From Streptomyces cyaneus (lineage in GTDB: Bacteria; Actinomycetota; Actinomycetes; Streptomycetales; Streptomycetaceae): a DNA stretch of 64,000 nucleotides. The translations under genes and the position numbers were made by a program. Within the stretch, counting starts at the first letter, position 1; each line of letters opens with the position of its first letter. The DNA lies in the NCBI RefSeq assembly GCF_004028635.1, contig NZ_RQJW01000005.1, forward strand, positions 62,001-126,000, read 5' to 3'. Below are positions 7,774-55,600 of the stretch, one piece after another. The notes under the pieces were generated by a model. It was not told the origin of the DNA, did no database searches, and saw only the letters and a program-made list of their open reading frames with translations.

Positions 7774-9399
7774 TCAGGCCGGGCGCAGCACCTCGGGCAT
7801 CCCCCAGCGCCGCAGAACCTCCGGCACGACCACCGTCCCGTCCGCCCGCTGGTACTGCTCCAGGATCGCGGGCAGCAGCCGGCTGGTGGCCAGGCCCGAG
7901 GCGTTGAGGGTGTGGAGGTGGGTCGCCTTGCCGCCGGCGGCCGGACGGTAGCGGATGCCGCCGCGCCGGGCCTGGTAGGCGCGGGCGTTCGACACCGAGC
8001 TGACCTCGGCGTATGCGCCCAGGCTGGGCAGCCAGACCTCCACGTCGTAGGTCTTGGCCTGCGCGGGGCTGGTGTCCCCGGCGGCGAGCTTGGTGACCCG
8101 GTAGTGCAGGCCGAGCCCCGCGACCAACTCCTCTGCCCGCGCGAGTAGTTCGAGGTGCGCGGCGTCCGAGTCCTGCGGCCGGGCGAACTGGAACAGCTCG
8201 ACCTTGTTGAACTGGTGGCCCCGCAGCGTCCCGCGGTCCGCCGTGCGGTGGCTGCCGCTCTCCCTGCGGTAACAGGGCGTGTAGGCGACGTACTTGCGCG
8301 GCAGCTCGCGTTCGTCGAGCGTCTCGCCGCGATGGAGGTTGACCAGGGCGGTCTCGGCGGTGGGCAGCAGGAAGTGCTCGTCCACGCGGAAGACCTCGTC
8401 GGCGAACTTGGGGAACTGCCCGGCCGTGTACCCGGCCTCGTACGTCAGCAGGTGCGGCGGCAGCACGAACTCGTACCCGGCGCGGCGGTGTGCGTCGAGG
8501 AAGTGGTTGAGCAACGCCCACTCCAGGGCGGCGCCCTGGCCACGGTAGATCCAGTAGCCGTTGCCTGCGAGGGCCGCGCCCCGCTTGTAGTCGACCAGAC
8601 CGAGGTCCTGGGCGAGCTCCACGTGGTCCCTGGCCGGGAAGTCGAAGGCGGGTGCGTCCCCCACGACCCGTACGACCTCGTTGCTCTCCTTGCCACCCGC
8701 CACGACGTCGTCGTCCGGGAGGTTGGGCAGAGCGTCGAGGAACTCCTGGTGCCTGCGGGCCAGTTCGGCGAGACGAGCCTCCGCCTCAGCGAGTTCGCCG
8801 GTCAGGGTCTTGGCGGCGGCCTGGAGTTCGTCGACCTGGGTCCGGGCGGTGGCCTGGGGTTCGTCGGCCTGGGGCCCGGGGGCGGCCCGGAGCTGGTCGA
8901 CCTCATTCCCGGCGGCGGCCTGCGGTTCGCCGGCCTGAGCCCCGGCGGCGGCCCGGGGTTCGTCGGCCTGGGGCCCGGCGGCGGCCCGGAGCTGGTCGAC
9001 CTCATTCCCGGCGGCGGCCTGCGGCTCGCCGGCCTGAGCCCCGGCGGCGGCCCGGGGTTCGTCGGCCTGAGCCCCGGCGGCGGCCCGGAGCTGGTCGACC
9101 TCATTCCCGGCGGCGGCCTGCGGCTCGCCGGCCTGAGCCCCGGCGGTGGCCCGGGGTTCGTCGGCCTGGGGCCCGGCGGTGGCCTGTGGCTCGTCGGTCG
9201 CGGGGTGCTCCCGGCGTCGTGCGGCGATCTCCGCCGAGATCCGTCGTCGCTCGCCGCGCAGCCGCTCCACGGCCGTGCGGGCCTCGCGGAAGGCGGTGTC
9301 GAGGGTGAGGAAGGCCGGGATGTCGGCGTCCACGGCGCGTTTGCGCAGGGCCTCGCGGACCTGGTCGGGGTGGTTTCGGATGAGGGTGACGTCGAGCAT
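7774..9399 (-). CDS. serS: Serine--tRNA ligase with an expanded repeat-bearing N-terminal arm
   Basis: 541 residues. It charges tRNA-Ser with serine using ATP. I choose the ATG at 9399 (MLDVTLIRNHPDQVREAL), the normal family start. The class II core is complete: motif 2 around YRRESGSHR (with ...GTLRGHQFNKVELFQF after it) and a motif 3-like GLATSRLLPAILEQYQ. The usual SerRS is about 420-430 residues. The extra length is an Ala/Gln/Glu/Pro-rich insertion in the N-terminal antiparallel coiled-coil arm, made of 33-residue repeats. Upstream lies a T-box leader with a serine specifier, so expression should respond to uncharged tRNA-Ser. Streptomyces normally have another serS elsewhere, so this may be a second, inducible copy; some antibiotic-resistant SerRS paralogues are known in actinomycetes. 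Essentiality cannot be judged. Confidence 0.88.
   Translation of the reverse strand: MLDVTLIRNHPDQVREALRKRAVDADIPAFLTLDTAFREARTAVERLRGERRRISAEIAARRREHPATDEPQATAGPQADEPRATAGAQAGEPQAAAGNEVDQLRAAAGAQADEPRAAAGAQAGEPQAAAGNEVDQLRAAAGPQADEPRAAAGAQAGEPQAAAGNEVDQLRAAPGPQADEPQATARTQVDELQAAAKTLTGELAEAEARLAELARRHQEFLDALPNLPDDDVVAGGKESNEVVRVVGDAPAFDFPARDHVELAQDLGLVDYKRGAALAGNGYWIYRGQGAALEWALLNHFLDAHRRAGYEFVLPPHLLTYEAGYTAGQFPKFADEVFRVDEHFLLPTAETALVNLHRGETLDERELPRKYVAYTPCYRRESGSHRTADRGTLRGHQFNKVELFQFARPQDSDAAHLELLARAEELVAGLGLHYRVTKLAAGDTSPAQAKTYDVEVWLPSLGAYAEVSSVSNARAYQARRGGIRYRPAAGGKATHLHTLNASGLATSRLLPAILEQYQRADGTVVVPEVLRRWGMPEVLRPA
8870..9180 (-). repeat. 99-bp tandem repeat inside serS
   Basis: About three copies of a 99-bp unit; the landmark AGCTGGTCGACCTCATTCCC on the + strand starts at 8891, 8990 and 9089, exactly 99 apart. 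It encodes 33-residue units (NEVDQLRAAAG, QADEPRAAAG, QAGEPQAAAG). The arm should vary in length between strains by slippage or recombination. Confidence 0.92.
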
Positions 9400-9435
9400 G
9401 GTGCGCGCTCCGTCCGGTCGGCCGGGGCGCACGGT

Positions 9436-9675
9436 CCGCCCCGGGGTGATCCCTCGGGGCGTGGGCGAGAGGGTGCTCGCGGTGCCACCACGCCTTCACC
9501 GCCGTACACCACCTGCGTGGCCGTACGACGGACTCGTTCGGGCCCGATGACGGGGGCCGGCCGGCGGGGCATTTCCTCCCCGCACTCGGGAGGGGATTCA
9601 CGCCGGGTGCGCGAGGCCGCCTTCACAGCAGGTGGCGGCTCTCTCGGCTCGCGGGGCCCGGGCTACTCGTCTCCG
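9436..9675 (-). promoter_or_regulatory. T-box riboswitch leader of serS, serine (UCC) specifier
   Basis: On the minus strand, reading 5' to 3': an AGTAG box (9667-9663); a Stem I with CGCGAG pairing CTCGCG and GCCGCC pairing GGCGGC; the specifier region GTGAA followed by TCC (9596-9594), a serine codon matching tRNA-Ser(GGA); then GAAGGCGTGGTGGCACCGCG containing the conserved T-box core (GGTGGCACCGCG, 9489-9478) that pairs with the uncharged tRNA 3' end. A hairpin CGCCCCGAGGG/CCCCGGGGCG (about 9461-9436) follows as terminator-like alternative. The gene it precedes encodes SerRS, exactly as the specifier predicts. There is no U-tract, so transcriptional versus translational control is open. 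Confidence 0.85.
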
Positions 9676-9726
9676 TCAGCGCGTTGCAGACGAGCGTAAG
9701 GGGCACCTTCGACCGGCGGAAACGAA

Positions 9727-10365
9727 TTACGCCGGTGCTCCCAGCTCCGCCCACACCGTCTTGCCCGCGACCCCCGGCGTCCGTACGACCCCCCAGTCCA
9801 GGCACAGCCGCTGCACGATGAACATGCCGTGGCCGCCGGGGCGGCCCGCGCGGTGCGGGGTACGCGGGGCCGGCTGGCCCGTGCCCTTGTCGGAGACCTC
9901 GATACGGATCACCTTGTTGTCGCAGGCGATCCACATCTCGTCCGGCCCCTCGGCGTGCAGACAGGCGTTGGTGACCAGCTCGGAGACGACGAGCAGTACG
10001 TCCTCGGCGGCGGCCCGCTGGTCGGCGGTGGCGGCGGGCAGCCAGCCCCACGCGTACAGGGCCTGGCGGGCGAAGTCGCGGGCGAGCGGAACGACCCCGC
10101 TCTGCCCCTCGAAGCCCAGCCGACGGACCTGACGCGCCACCGACGCCTCGGCGGCCGAGACGGCCCCCTCGGGCCCCTCGCCCCCCAAGGGCCTCTCGGC
10201 TCTCTCGGGCGGCAGGGACGGCACGGCGCCCCCGTCGGACGCTCCGGCCACCGGGGCGCCCTGCTCGGCGCCGCCCGTCGCCGGTACGCCCCCCTTGGCC
10301 GCCCCGGAAGCGCCGCTGGGCTCGGGGCCGCGGTCGCCCGGCGAGAAAGGCCGGGTGGTGCTCAT
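9727..10365 (-). CDS. RsbW-like anti-sigma factor / ATP-binding protein
   Basis: 212 residues. The first 80 or so are low-complexity (Gly, Ala, Pro, Glu); the rest is a GHKL ATPase of the anti-sigma type, with N-box VVSELVTNACLHA, the D-x-G box VSDKGTGQPAPR and the G-box GGHGMFIVQRLC. Such proteins bind SigB-family sigma factors or phosphorylate STAS antagonists. A STAS protein (10601-10999) and a SigB-type sigma factor (11239-12192) are next door, so it is the probable anti-sigma factor of that sigma. In the 235-bp gap upstream, two CGATTCAC direct repeats (10382-10389 and 10406-10413) sit close to the start codon and could be an operator. Confidence 0.85.
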   Translation of the reverse strand: MSTTRPFSPGDRGPEPSGASGAAKGGVPATGGAEQGAPVAGASDGGAVPSLPPERAERPLGGEGPEGAVSAAEASVARQVRRLGFEGQSGVVPLARDFARQALYAWGWLPAATADQRAAAEDVLLVVSELVTNACLHAEGPDEMWIACDNKVIRIEVSDKGTGQPAPRTPHRAGRPGGHGMFIVQRLCLDWGVVRTPGVAGKTVWAELGAPA

Positions 10366-10600
10366 CAGCGCTTCACCTCACCGATTCACCAGTTCAACGT
10401 TCACACGATTCACAAGTCTGTACGCAGAGTCAGTACGCCAGTACACGTCCTTGCCTGATACCTCGGTCACAGTCCCCCACCCCCGGTGGCCGACCTCACA
10501 GCCGACAGTTTCAGGATGCTCCTGCCCGACCGCGCCGAGGGAACACCCCCGGATTCGGCACGAATGATGTGACGTCCGATGCGGTGCCGGACGCGAGTGC

Positions 10601-10999
10601 TCAATCCGGCCCGTCGGCCTCGTCGGCCAGGGCGTCGGCGAGCGAGTCGTGGACCGTGAAGACCGCTTCGGCCCCTGTGATCTCGAACACGCGCGCAACG
10701 ACGGGCAGCATGCCCGCGAGATGCACCCCGCCACCGGCGGCCTCCGCCTTCAGCCGCGCCCCGAGCAGCACGTTCAGCCCCGTGGAGTCACAGAACTCCA
10801 GCCGCGAGCAGTCGACGACCAGCCGACTGAAGCCCTTGCCGAGGCAGTCCTCGAGTGGCTCACGCAACAAATCGGCGGTGTGGTGGTCCAACTCACCCGC
10901 CGGGGTCACGACGGCACTGGAGCCCTCTTCCCGCACCTCGACCAGAAGTCGGCCAGACTGTGCGCTGCCGACCGTCCCGCGGTCCATGCCGTCTCTCAC
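10601..10999 (-). CDS. STAS-domain anti-anti-sigma factor
   Basis: 132 residues, the RsbV/SpoIIAA type. The phosphorylation loop LEFCDSTGLNVLLGA is present with the target Ser in DSTG near residue 78. The unphosphorylated form binds the anti-sigma kinase and frees the sigma factor. An internal ATG four codons in (MDRGTVG) is an alternative start. It sits between the anti-sigma gene and the divergent sigma gene, completing a partner-switching set. C-terminal acidic tail (DALADEADGPD). Confidence 0.88.
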   Translation of the reverse strand: MRDGMDRGTVGSAQSGRLLVEVREEGSSAVVTPAGELDHHTADLLREPLEDCLGKGFSRLVVDCSRLEFCDSTGLNVLLGARLKAEAAGGGVHLAGMLPVVARVFEITGAEAVFTVHDSLADALADEADGPD

Positions 11000-11238
11000 T
11001 CCCGACGTCGTGGCTGCTGACTGACGCTCTCGAACACTACGCCTTCCCTACGCCCTCCAACACCCGAACATCCACCCAGAAACGGACATTTCGGAACAGA
11101 GCGCACTTGCGGTGGGCTCCCGAAAGCGGGTAGGGCTAGTAGAGACACGTAACCGACTCGGCCGGCTTTGGAGGCGCCGCACACCGCAGTGCACGCACAG
11201 GCTTCGGCAGCCATATGCCGAGAACGATGGAGGACATC

Positions 11239-12192
11239 ATGTCACCCCGGCTCGACGCATCGCATACCCAGACGGCGACGTCGGCACCCCGACCGGAACA
11301 TCTGGATCCCATCGAGCGCAGCAGCGACGTTCGTTCCGAACAGGACTTGGGCCAGGACTTCGGTCAGGAGTTCGGCCAGGACGACGCACTCGCCGGGCTT
11401 CCGGACATCCCCCCTTACGACGAGGTGGGGCCGGTGGACGCGCGGGCCCTTTCCAAGACCCTCTTCGAGCGGCTGGAGTCGCTGGAGGAAGGGACCCACG
11501 ACTACTCGTACGTCCGCAACACGCTCGTCGAACTCAACCTCGCCCTGGTCAAGTTCGCCGCCTCCCGCTTCCGCTCGCGCAGCGAGCCGATGGAGGACAT
11601 CATCCAGGTCGGCACCATCGGCCTGATCAAGGCGATCGACCGCTTCGAGCTCAGCCGTGGCGTGGAGTTCCCCACCTTCGCGATGCCGACCATCGTCGGC
11701 GAGATCAAGCGCTTCTTCCGCGACACCTCGTGGTCGGTGCGCGTCCCGCGCCGGCTGCAGGAACTCCGGCTCGACCTGGCCAAGGCCGGCGACGAGTTGG
11801 CCCAGAAGCTGGACCGCGCCCCGACGGTGGCGGAACTGGCGGAGCGCCTCGGTCTGACCAACGACGAGGTCGTCGAGGGCATGGCGGCGTCGAACGCGTA
11901 CACCGCCTCCTCGCTGGACGCCCAGCCCGAGGAGGACGACGCCGAGGGCGCGCTCGCCGACCGGATCGGCTACGAGGACCACGGCATCGAAGGCATCGAG
12001 TACGTCGAGTCGTTGAAGCCGCTCATCGCCGAACTGCCGCCCAGAGACCGGAAGATCCTCTCCTTGCGGTTCGTCGCGGGCATGACCCAGTCGGAGATCG
12101 GCGACGAACTCGGCATCTCACAGATGCATGTGTCGAGGCTGTTGTCGCGGACGCTGATCCGGCTCCGCAAGGGACTGACGGTCGAGGAATGA
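11239..12192 (+). CDS. sigI: RNA polymerase sigma factor, SigB/SigF/SigG family (SigI-like)
   Basis: 317 residues. I choose the ATG at 11239 because GGAGGA sits seven bases upstream, inside the longer reading frame that opens at 11215. Region 2 (LVKFAASRF, DIIQVGTIGLIKAIDRFELSRGVEFPTFAMP), region 3 (SVRVPRRLQELR, PTVAELAERLGL) and region 4 (SLRFVAGMTQSEIGDELGISQMHVSRLLSRTL) are all intact. The acidic N-terminal extension before region 2 is typical of Streptomyces stress sigma factors. Its divergent neighbours are a STAS antagonist and an RsbW-type kinase. The symbol rests on the resemblance to the S. coelicolor sigI neighbourhood beside the hut genes; the family call is secure, the ortholog call less so. 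Confidence 0.9.
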   Translation: MSPRLDASHTQTATSAPRPEHLDPIERSSDVRSEQDLGQDFGQEFGQDDALAGLPDIPPYDEVGPVDARALSKTLFERLESLEEGTHDYSYVRNTLVELNLALVKFAASRFRSRSEPMEDIIQVGTIGLIKAIDRFELSRGVEFPTFAMPTIVGEIKRFFRDTSWSVRVPRRLQELRLDLAKAGDELAQKLDRAPTVAELAERLGLTNDEVVEGMAASNAYTASSLDAQPEEDDAEGALADRIGYEDHGIEGIEYVESLKPLIAELPPRDRKILSLRFVAGMTQSEIGDELGISQMHVSRLLSRTLIRLRKGLTVEE

Positions 12193-54648: not shown

Positions 54649-55344
54649 CTACTTCAGGTGCAGCTGCTGACCCGGGTAGATCAGGTTCGCGTCCTCGACG
54701 ATGTCCTTGTTCAGCTGGAAGAGCTTCTCCCAGCCGCCCTTGACGTCGTGCTCCGCGGCGATCGAGCTGAGGGTGTCGCCCTTGACGACCTTGTACTCGC
54801 CGTCGCCCTTCTTGACCTTCTTGCCGGTCGGGGTGGTGACGGTCTTGGTGCTCTTCTTGGCGGCGGGACGCTCGCTGGAGCGGGAGGCCGACTGCTGCTC
54901 GGTGGAGCGGGTGGTGGTCTCGCTGCTCTGCGAGGAACCGCTCGACGAGGAGCCGGAGCCGCTGTACGCGGCGCTCGACAGGCCGGTGCCGCAGTGCGGC
55001 CAGGCACCCTTGCCCTGGCTGGCGAGGACCTTCTCGGCAATCTGGATCTGCTGGGCCTTGCTGGCCTGGTCGGCGGTGGAGGCGTAGGCCGTGCCGCCGT
55101 ACGCGGCCCAGGTGGAGGCGGAGAACTGCAGACCGCCGTAGTAGCCGTTGCCGGTGTTGATCGACCAGTTGCCGCCGGACTCGCACTGGGCGACGGTGTC
55201 CCACTCGGAGGCGGTGGCGGCGGAGGCGCTGCCGGCCGCCATCAGCGGGGCGGCGACGGCGGCGGCGCCGGTGACACCGACGACGGCTATGGCGCGAGCG
55301 GCCTTGGACGGACGACGGTGCTTGCCCTTGCTGGAAAACAGCAT
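54649..55344 (-). CDS. rpfA: Resuscitation-promoting factor-type muralytic enzyme with LysM domain
   Basis: 231 residues. Signal peptide to about residue 42 (SASA); Rpf transglycosylase-like domain about 44-115 ([27 protein letters not shown] with the catalytic Glu in CESGG); Ser-rich linker; C-terminal LysM (about 180-230, [26 protein letters not shown]) for peptidoglycan binding. It cleaves cell wall to promote spore germination or dormancy exit. The leader looks like a ydaO-type c-di-AMP riboswitch, as known for rpfA in S. coelicolor. Confidence 0.93.
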
Positions 55345-55384
55345 GGAGAGATCCCCTCACCGACGCCTGCGAGGTGAGCTGTCG

Positions 55385-55600
55385 GGTTCGGGCCGGTTGA
55401 GTTGCCCGGCCGCGCACGTTCGCCTTTCGGCTCCCGTTGCGCGGCTTCACCCCAAGCCGACTCCGGCCGTGCGGCCCCGAAGGGCCTCAACTGCCGGACC
55501 CGGCACTTACCTTGGGTCCCCCGCTCCTGCCTACGGCGCTTTACGCGACGACTGTTCCCGTACGGCCGCTGGCAGGATTCGGCGTTGCGGCAGCCGGGGC
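55385..55600 (-). promoter_or_regulatory. ydaO-yuaA-type (c-di-AMP) riboswitch candidate in the rpfA leader
   Basis: Minus-strand leader of about 215 nt with the hallmark pieces in order: GCCGAATCCTGCC (about 55583-55571), GTAGGCAGGAGCGGGGGACCC, GGCTTGGGGTGAAGCCG, and the closing ACTCAACCGGCCCGAACCCG. The GGGGGACCCA and GGGGTGAA segments are the conserved ydaO core. A small hairpin (CTCACC/GGTGAG, 55356-55378) lies between it and the start codon. Boundaries are approximate. Confidence 0.75.

Follow-up and report, generated by a model that had tools for sequence, protein, structure and literature searches.

A serine-specific T-box leader upstream of an accessory seryl-tRNA synthetase gene in Streptomyces cyaneus

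The serS2 locus and its leader

The window analyzed here is a stretch of 64,000 nucleotides from Streptomyces cyaneus, and all unprefixed positions refer to it; L and G numbers denote loci and genomes. Its minus strand carries serS2, which encodes a seryl-tRNA synthetase (SerRS) and is preceded by a T-box leader. The covariance-model search proposed in a preliminary description of the sequence returned a full-length match to the Rfam T-box family RF00230 at 9458-9688 (minus strand; model positions 1-219 of 219; 47.1 bits; E 2e-9 in 401 bases), and the same leader was recovered with E = 1.1e-8 from the whole 9.8-Mb genome. Its 3' boundary lies 58 nt from the serS2 start (ATG at 9399). The elements named in the preliminary description were indeed found in order on the minus strand, which presents an AGUA bulge, the AGAGA distal motif, the specifier loop GUGAA-UCC, stems II, IIA/B and III, the T-box core UGGCACC and finally the serS start at 9399. 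The T-box itself was correctly recognized, but the stretch assigned to it (9436-9675) was misplaced, so that it lacked the 5' foot of stem I and partly included a downstream hairpin. The features of the locus are as follows.

7774-9399, minus: serS2, accessory seryl-tRNA synthetase of 541 aa (TIGR00414; Bacillota-like clade)
9401-9432, minus: hairpin P2 holding the Shine-Dalgarno sequence, predicted with the antiterminator forced or blocked
9408-9411, minus: Shine-Dalgarno sequence GGAG, 8 nt before the start codon, read in the sequence
9437-9461, minus: hairpin P1, CGCCCCG(A)GGG-AUCA-CCCCGGGGCG, overlapping the 3' strand of A1 and without a U-tract after it
9451-9473, minus: candidate helix S1, CCCUC (9469-9473) with GAGGG (9451-9455), from loop/tail complementarity
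9458-9688, minus: T-box leader (stems I, II, IIA/B and III, antiterminator), from the RF00230 match and compensatory changes in 47 leaders
9458-9494, minus: antiterminator/antisequestrator; A1 is 9488-9494 with 9458-9464, A2 is 9476-9480 with 9465-9469
9481-9487, minus: 7-nt T-box bulge UGGCACC between A1 and A2, its UGGC complementary to GCCA-3' of tRNA-Ser
9499-9531, minus: stem III (92.6% paired; compensatory change in 8 of 9 pairs)
9541-9563, minus: stem IIA/B pseudoknot (IIB 94.8% paired, compensatory change in 3 of 5 pairs; IIA 97.9% paired, none)
9564-9583, minus: stem II (98.9% of cells paired; compensatory change in 2 of 6 pairs)
9589-9688, minus: stem I, comprising its foot, the AGUA bulge, the AGAGA and distal loop motifs and the specifier loop, from the Rfam alignment and pairing
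9594-9596, minus: specifier codon UCC (Ser), in the specifier loop GUGAA-UCC
9637-9645, minus: AGAGA distal motif, from sequence
Inside 9661-9668, minus: AGUA bulge, from sequence
9693-9698, minus: candidate -10 box TACGCT, read in the sequence

Given the candidate -10 box, transcription would start where the foot of stem I starts; TANNCT-like boxes appear, by eye, to be similarly placed in many aligned leaders. The region next to serS2 (9727-12192) encodes an anti-sigma factor antagonist, a SigB/F/G-type sigma factor and a protein that matches the RsbA family weakly (40.2 bits against a cut-off of 210).

The score of 47.1 bits falls short of the RF00230 gathering score of 93, which is why a default Rfam scan of the window does not list the leader. 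T-box matches at E 0.001 or better were obtained in 245 of 246 Streptomyces genomes, and in none of the 246 does a match reach the gathering score. The genome search gave two matches in this genome, the serS2 leader and one before a putative ileS, a gene whose N-terminus reads as that of an isoleucyl-tRNA synthetase. Single-sequence folding of the leader, which has a GC content of 74%, was uninformative as a test for a T-box (z -1.30; 24 of 200 shuffles equally good). Against the low score and the unexceptional fold, it is the comparative evidence that decides whether the T-box is real.

Comparative support for fold and specifier

Forty-seven leaders were aligned. They comprise 29 distinct serS2 leaders (21 from 392 Streptomyces genomes and 8 from named records, with the duplicates L037 and L043 left out) and 18 leaders of genes for proteins resembling aspartyl-tRNA synthetase (AspRS-like), drawn from the 30 best-scoring T-box loci, of which the remainder are 4 serS2 and 8 ileS-type loci. 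The scored structure was written from the window sequence, so that the pairing of the window leader itself is no independent test. Across the alignment 95.8% of 2594 cells are paired, and 28 of 58 pairs have changed on both sides, compared to a mean of 12.3 after shuffling, with 0 of 500 shuffles as high. Kinship among the leaders inflates this shuffle test; controls in which the 3' partners were slid by 1-3 columns keep the kinship and gave 41.8-48.7% pairing. Compensatory changes occur in seven of the 11 named helices (the middle, upper and distal helices of stem I, II, IIB, III and A1), while almost no variation is seen in the stem I foot, in IIA or in A2. Both A1 and A2 are 100% paired in all 47 leaders, with compensatory changes in 3 of 7 pairs of A1 and in none of A2. 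Within stem I, pairing ranges from 76.1 to 100% over its five helices, and the lowest value, that of the middle helix, in our view results partly from misaligned columns. Motifs and pairing identify the AGUA bulge and specifier loop of a T-box stem I, and a K-turn can be assigned by motif. On this evidence the presence of a T-box leader is confirmed.

In three of the 29 distinct serS2 leaders (L122:2822-3012, L123:1039-1237 and L039:5772-5966) the distal arm of stem I has been lost. Specifier and antiterminator are kept in all three, which makes them natural stem I truncations.

The specifier changes with the gene between fixed flanks. All 29 serS2 leaders have UCC and all 18 AspRS-like leaders have GAC, in each case preceded by GAA (the GGAA of L008 has the same ending) and shortly followed by CUC. 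This swap, which tracks the gene while the flanks remain unchanged, fixes the specifier frame. Among the 69 tRNA matches in the genome, the 11 longest kinds were fetched and five of these are tRNA-Ser, with the anticodons GCU (two), UGA, CGA and GGA. The genome's own tRNA-Ser(GGA) ends in GCCA and can thus pair with the UGGC of the bulge. The UCC/GAC swap and the discriminator match of UGGC together uphold the serine specificity that had been proposed from the window alone. As to whether the serine leaders arose once or through several specifier switches, the leader tree needs three changes (bootstrap range 3-4), and a single clade of serine leaders is not rejected by the AU test (p 0.166).

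Two sceptical readings of these data can be weighed here. The leader could resemble a T-box by chance, as might be argued from its score below the gathering score and from a fold no better than that of shuffled sequences; the motif order is kept in the aligned relatives, however, and the covariation, matched by none of the 500 shuffles, refutes this reading, to which we give practically no weight. Alternatively, the specifier might be read in another frame (CCC for proline, AUC for isoleucine) or the T-box might answer another tRNA, because a single leader does not reveal the codon boundary and UCC is followed variously by C, A or G. In all 47 leaders, in contrast, frame 0 yields serine or aspartate in agreement with the gene; the shifted frames read Ile/Arg or Pro/Thr, neither of which names both amino acids, and UGGC fits the end of tRNA-Ser(GGA). 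A different frame or tRNA is thus very improbable.

An accessory synthetase and the paralogous AspRS-like leaders

The preliminary assignment of the downstream gene to SerRS agrees with the equivalog TIGR00414, which the product matches with 364.5 bits against a cut-off of 301.65 (scanned on a longer frame from 9432). By this match the protein is a seryl-tRNA synthetase, with aminoacylation as its predicted activity. It shares 38% identity with its own genome's housekeeping SerRS and up to 63% (best segment) with SerRS of Clostridia and relatives. A tree of 73 SerRS proteins, sampled by similarity and with a very long outgroup branch, unites the 25 actinobacterial members in a single group (SH-aLRT 100) that falls amid mostly Bacillota sequences; the tree does not fix the position of this group among the others. 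The tree omits L037, L127, L129, L131, L135, L137 and L141 as well as 27 of 69 non-actinobacterial loci.

A serS2 gene with a T-box is present in 21 of 392 Streptomyces genomes. All 21 also hold an ordinary SerRS, 85-100% identical to that of the window genome, and serS2 therefore encodes an accessory, second SerRS. Its spread is patchy and it is sometimes decaying, as in G110, where serS2 contains an in-frame TAG, and in G352, where the N-terminal frame is broken. The T-box core precedes 21 of the 26 second-SerRS matches of the genus, and those 21 are the ones with an identity of 67% or more. Before the five other second SerRS genes of Streptomyces (45-59% identity) the core GGTGGCACCGCG is absent; one of them, L143, carries GGTGGCACCGAG upstream. 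The serS2 of the window contains a 33-bp tandem repeat at 8812-9197 (11.7 copies, or 3.8 copies of 99 bp) that adds 11-residue repeats to the expected tRNA-binding arm, and the protein measures 541 aa compared to 424 aa in L119, L120 and L036.

Outside the Actinobacteria, a T-box core was found at most 330 nt upstream of serS in 7 of 69 loci tested, with start codons assigned by a simple rule and less than 250 nt of upstream sequence in three loci. The Catenulispora locus L049, which is not among the 69, likewise has the core upstream of serS. In the stretch read of the Yinghuangia locus L042, the first branch of the actinobacterial SerRS group, no T-box was found. A direct hand-over of T-box and serS from a sampled donor is unsupported by the 7 of 69 loci and by L042.

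The AspRS-like leaders share helices and tail with the serS2 leaders and differ from them in the specifier (GAC) and the gene. Within Streptomyces, serine and AspRS-like leaders are 75.9-85.7% identical in six pairs, and the mean of all serine-aspartate pairs is 79.6%. One 110-aa fragment of the AspRS-like family was scanned and gave NF003483, aspartate--tRNA(Asn) ligase, as its best match; the other 17 genes were named by their similar N-termini. A pattern for the core shared by both kinds of leader, which misses some Rfam matches, detects at least 52 copies, spread over 43 of 392 Streptomyces genomes. In a set of 394 genomes of the class it occurs in 11, of which three are Streptomyces. One match, L225, precedes a gene that reads as ileS. 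The Asp-type T-box L205 of G318 has an altered antiterminator loop and pairs weakly in S1; the roughly 120 nt that follow it showed no long frame.

In three genomes that were read (G040, G117 and G240) serS2 and the extra AspRS-like gene lie close together, with their T-boxes 2.9-3.0 kb apart and an antisense gene between them. The paired loci are:

L185:7456-11769 (G040): by our reading of a cysteine motif, the antisense gene is radical-SAM-like; a Pfam scan of it gave no match
L186:7843-12201 (G117): the antisense gene is APH-like (23.7 bits, cut-off 23.2)
L187:8647-12922 (G240): the antisense gene appears similar to the one in G117

The T-box fold, the specifier, the tRNA match and the accessory nature of the gene are all supported by these computations.

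Expression platform and proposed mechanism

The absence of a U-tract, already remarked upon in the preliminary description, is a general feature of the serS2 leaders. Of the 29, just one, L135, contains TTT anywhere from the T-box core (+20) to the start codon, and there it lies in the loop of the antiterminator helix A2, whereas control leaders with a T-box core before serS in Bacillota contain TTTTT in 7 of 7 cases. Constrained folding of the window predicts ten pairs in P1 when the antiterminator is blocked and six when it is forced; the Shine-Dalgarno sequence is unpaired to 0.26 in both states. A clear release of the Shine-Dalgarno sequence is predicted in eight of the 29 leaders (L124 and L129-L135), with values of 0.29-0.46 when the antiterminator is forced versus 0.00-0.01 when it is blocked. 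In the predicted folds of L124, L130 and L133, the closed Shine-Dalgarno sequence is paired with GCUCC, made up of the 3' strand of A1 and the bases just beyond. The seven sister leaders L129-L135 have a predicted Shine-Dalgarno sequestrator and no P1. In the remaining 20 leaders the largest shift is 0.23 (L137), followed by 0.22 in L040 and less in the others, and some leaders shift in the opposite direction, such as L121 with 0.02 forced and 0.20 blocked.

A relay through an internal hairpin, formed by the 3' strand of P1 and the 5' strand of P2, was considered and rejected for the window, where the Shine-Dalgarno sequence fails to open. In L118 forcing A1 lowers the preference of the fold over the internal hairpin from 5.2 to 1.7 kcal/mol, with the Shine-Dalgarno sequence staying at 0.30. 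In L120, L121, L123, L126 and L038 the internal hairpin, when forced, opens the Shine-Dalgarno sequence to 0.20-0.52; this costs 2.2-7.8 kcal/mol. The platform shows thin covariation. P1, which is 96.9% paired in 16 leaders and has one compensatory pair, is equalled by 61 of 500 shuffles, the internal hairpin by 20 to 303 depending on the measure, the direct sequestrator by 113-472 and the inner helix of P2, which is without covariation support, by 379-500. With a static Shine-Dalgarno sequence in the window and such thin covariation, control at translation is probable in the sister leaders only; for the window leader, we consider it about an even chance.

A further candidate element is S1. 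Complementarity between the A2 loop and the tail that directly follows A1 on its 3' side occurs in changing sequence versions: CCCUU/AAGGG, CCCUC/GAGGG (the window), CCCUGC/GCAGGG, CCCCU/AGGGG and CCCG/CGGG. For 34 distinct loop/tail types the mean length of the longest Watson-Crick run is 4.74, compared to 4.25 with swapped tails (0 of 2000 swaps reach the observed mean) and 2.97 with shuffled tails (at most 3.38 in 1000). Exceptions are two types with three pairs (L124 and L223) and one with two (L205). Since CCC/GGG is nearly invariant and the types are related, these statistics are no more than suggestive of a helix joining the antiterminator loop to the 3' tail. S1 would enclose the 3' strands of A1 and A2; it most likely belongs, therefore, to the closed state, in which it would form an H-type pseudoknot with the helix made by the A1 strand. 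A place in the open state was set aside on the reasoning that a linker of 2-3 nt seems too short to span A1 and A2. S1 is not known to have a counterpart in Firmicutes serS T-boxes.

From these data we infer tRNA binding, the direction of regulation, the level of control and the purpose of the serS2 T-box as follows. The leader would bind tRNA-Ser(GGA) through the specifier UCC in stem I. If the tRNA is uncharged, its free GCCA end would pair with UGGC of the bulge and lock the antiterminator A1/A2, and A1 would thereby take the 3' strand otherwise used by a competing structure, so that serS2, as a backup SerRS, would be made. A fall in charged tRNA-Ser, due to serine shortage or to inhibition of the housekeeping SerRS, would accordingly raise the second SerRS. 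The output is most likely translational, as predicted for the sisters in which the 3' strand of A1 pairs directly with the Shine-Dalgarno sequence; in the lineage of the window P1 would stand in place of this direct pairing, with U-less termination as the main alternative. That serS2 carries a full-length serine-specific T-box, at whichever level it acts, is a conclusion we hold with good confidence.

Premature transcription termination overlaps with this explanation. In that case P1 would be a GC-rich terminator without U-tract that A1 cuts from ten to six pairs, and several observations are in its favor: P1 overlaps the 3' strand of A1, as terminators do, it is full when the antiterminator is blocked and shortened when it is forced while the Shine-Dalgarno state stays constant, and its pairing is conserved in 16 leaders, with one compensatory pair. 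No T run follows P1, however, in contrast to the TTTTT of the seven Bacillota serS leaders, and L129-L135 have a Shine-Dalgarno sequestrator predicted instead of P1. Termination is hence a substantial alternative, though we lean against it. It is also conceivable that the leader is decaying before a dispensable gene and nonfunctional in this strain. Damaged serS2 genes in G110 and G352, the tandem repeat array inside the window serS2 and the fact that most Streptomyces live without serS2 point this way, but all named motifs and helices are intact in the window leader, its serS2 passes the TIGR00414 cut-off and the near relative G104 has an almost identical leader, which makes decay unlikely. 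The preferred reading remains a functional serine T-box.

T-box control of serS is not new as such. One study records its conservation across nearly all Firmicutes, with a count of at least 29 among 34 (PMC2494555). The window leader resembles those Firmicutes leaders (RF00230, class I, transcriptional) in its serine specificity, its position on serS, a full-length stem I, stems II, IIA/B and III and a UGGN bulge. It differs from them in its GC content, in being attached to a second SerRS and in lacking a U-tract terminator; the intrinsic terminator with U-tract that defines class I is absent from the serS2 leaders. For Actinobacteria, a 2005 survey reports T-boxes only on ileS, describes them as free of terminators and proposes Shine-Dalgarno sequestration (PMC1262725). 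This survey and the second T-box of the genome, before the putative ileS, fit the earlier remark that actinobacterial T-boxes are best known before ileS. With these translational, class II leaders the serS2 leaders share the actinobacterial origin, the missing terminator and, for some sisters, predicted Shine-Dalgarno sequestration. Unlike serS2 leaders, the nine ileS-type leaders compared have UGGU and no AAGGG tail, and precede another gene with another leader sequence. Stem I is said in PMC7778990 to be shorter in translational than in transcriptional T-boxes, whereas that of the window is full and has distal motifs. What sets the leader apart from this known kind of T-box is a full-length aptamer on a U-less platform, the existence of Ser/Asp paralogues and an accessory synthetase. 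Within the openly licensed literature searched, including PMC7583486 and PMC10651847, no serine or aspartate T-box of Streptomyces was found; an earlier listing is possible.

Together with its aspartate counterpart, the serine T-box has the look of a backup system that has escaped notice. Antibiotic producers are known to protect themselves by means of second synthetases, and SerRS2 is listed as albomycin-resistant in PMC9437257. Alb10/SerRS2 of albomycin producers, likened here by description, is also a second SerRS in Streptomyces, and that the serS2 of the window serves self-resistance in an antibiotic producer is a guess. A wider and more doubtful proposal is that Streptomyces and some other actinobacteria possess an overlooked T-box class, in which a full-length aptamer is combined with a U-less platform closed as an H-type pseudoknot. 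S1 would join the antiterminator loop to the 3' tail, a second helix, S2, would join the 3' strand of A1 to the Shine-Dalgarno region or, in the window, form P1, and a UCC or GAC specifier would drive backup SerRS or AspRS-like genes as inducible cover against natural inhibitors. We advance this tentatively and consider it rather unlikely to hold in full.

If the reading is right, T-box control in Streptomyces extends beyond ileS to accessory synthetases, and synthetase inhibitors should induce the backup enzymes, which might be a pointer to producers or targets of SerRS and AspRS inhibitors. Annotation by the Rfam gathering score misses this T-box, as it would every T-box match in the 246 genomes. 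The paralogous leaders, differing in specifier and gene, constitute a natural swap experiment for the specifier rule.

Elsewhere in the window, a c-di-AMP (ydaO) riboswitch is located at 55349-55548 on the minus strand (62.4 bits). The open frame of a secreted protein, which we take to be Rpf-like, starts beside it at 55344.
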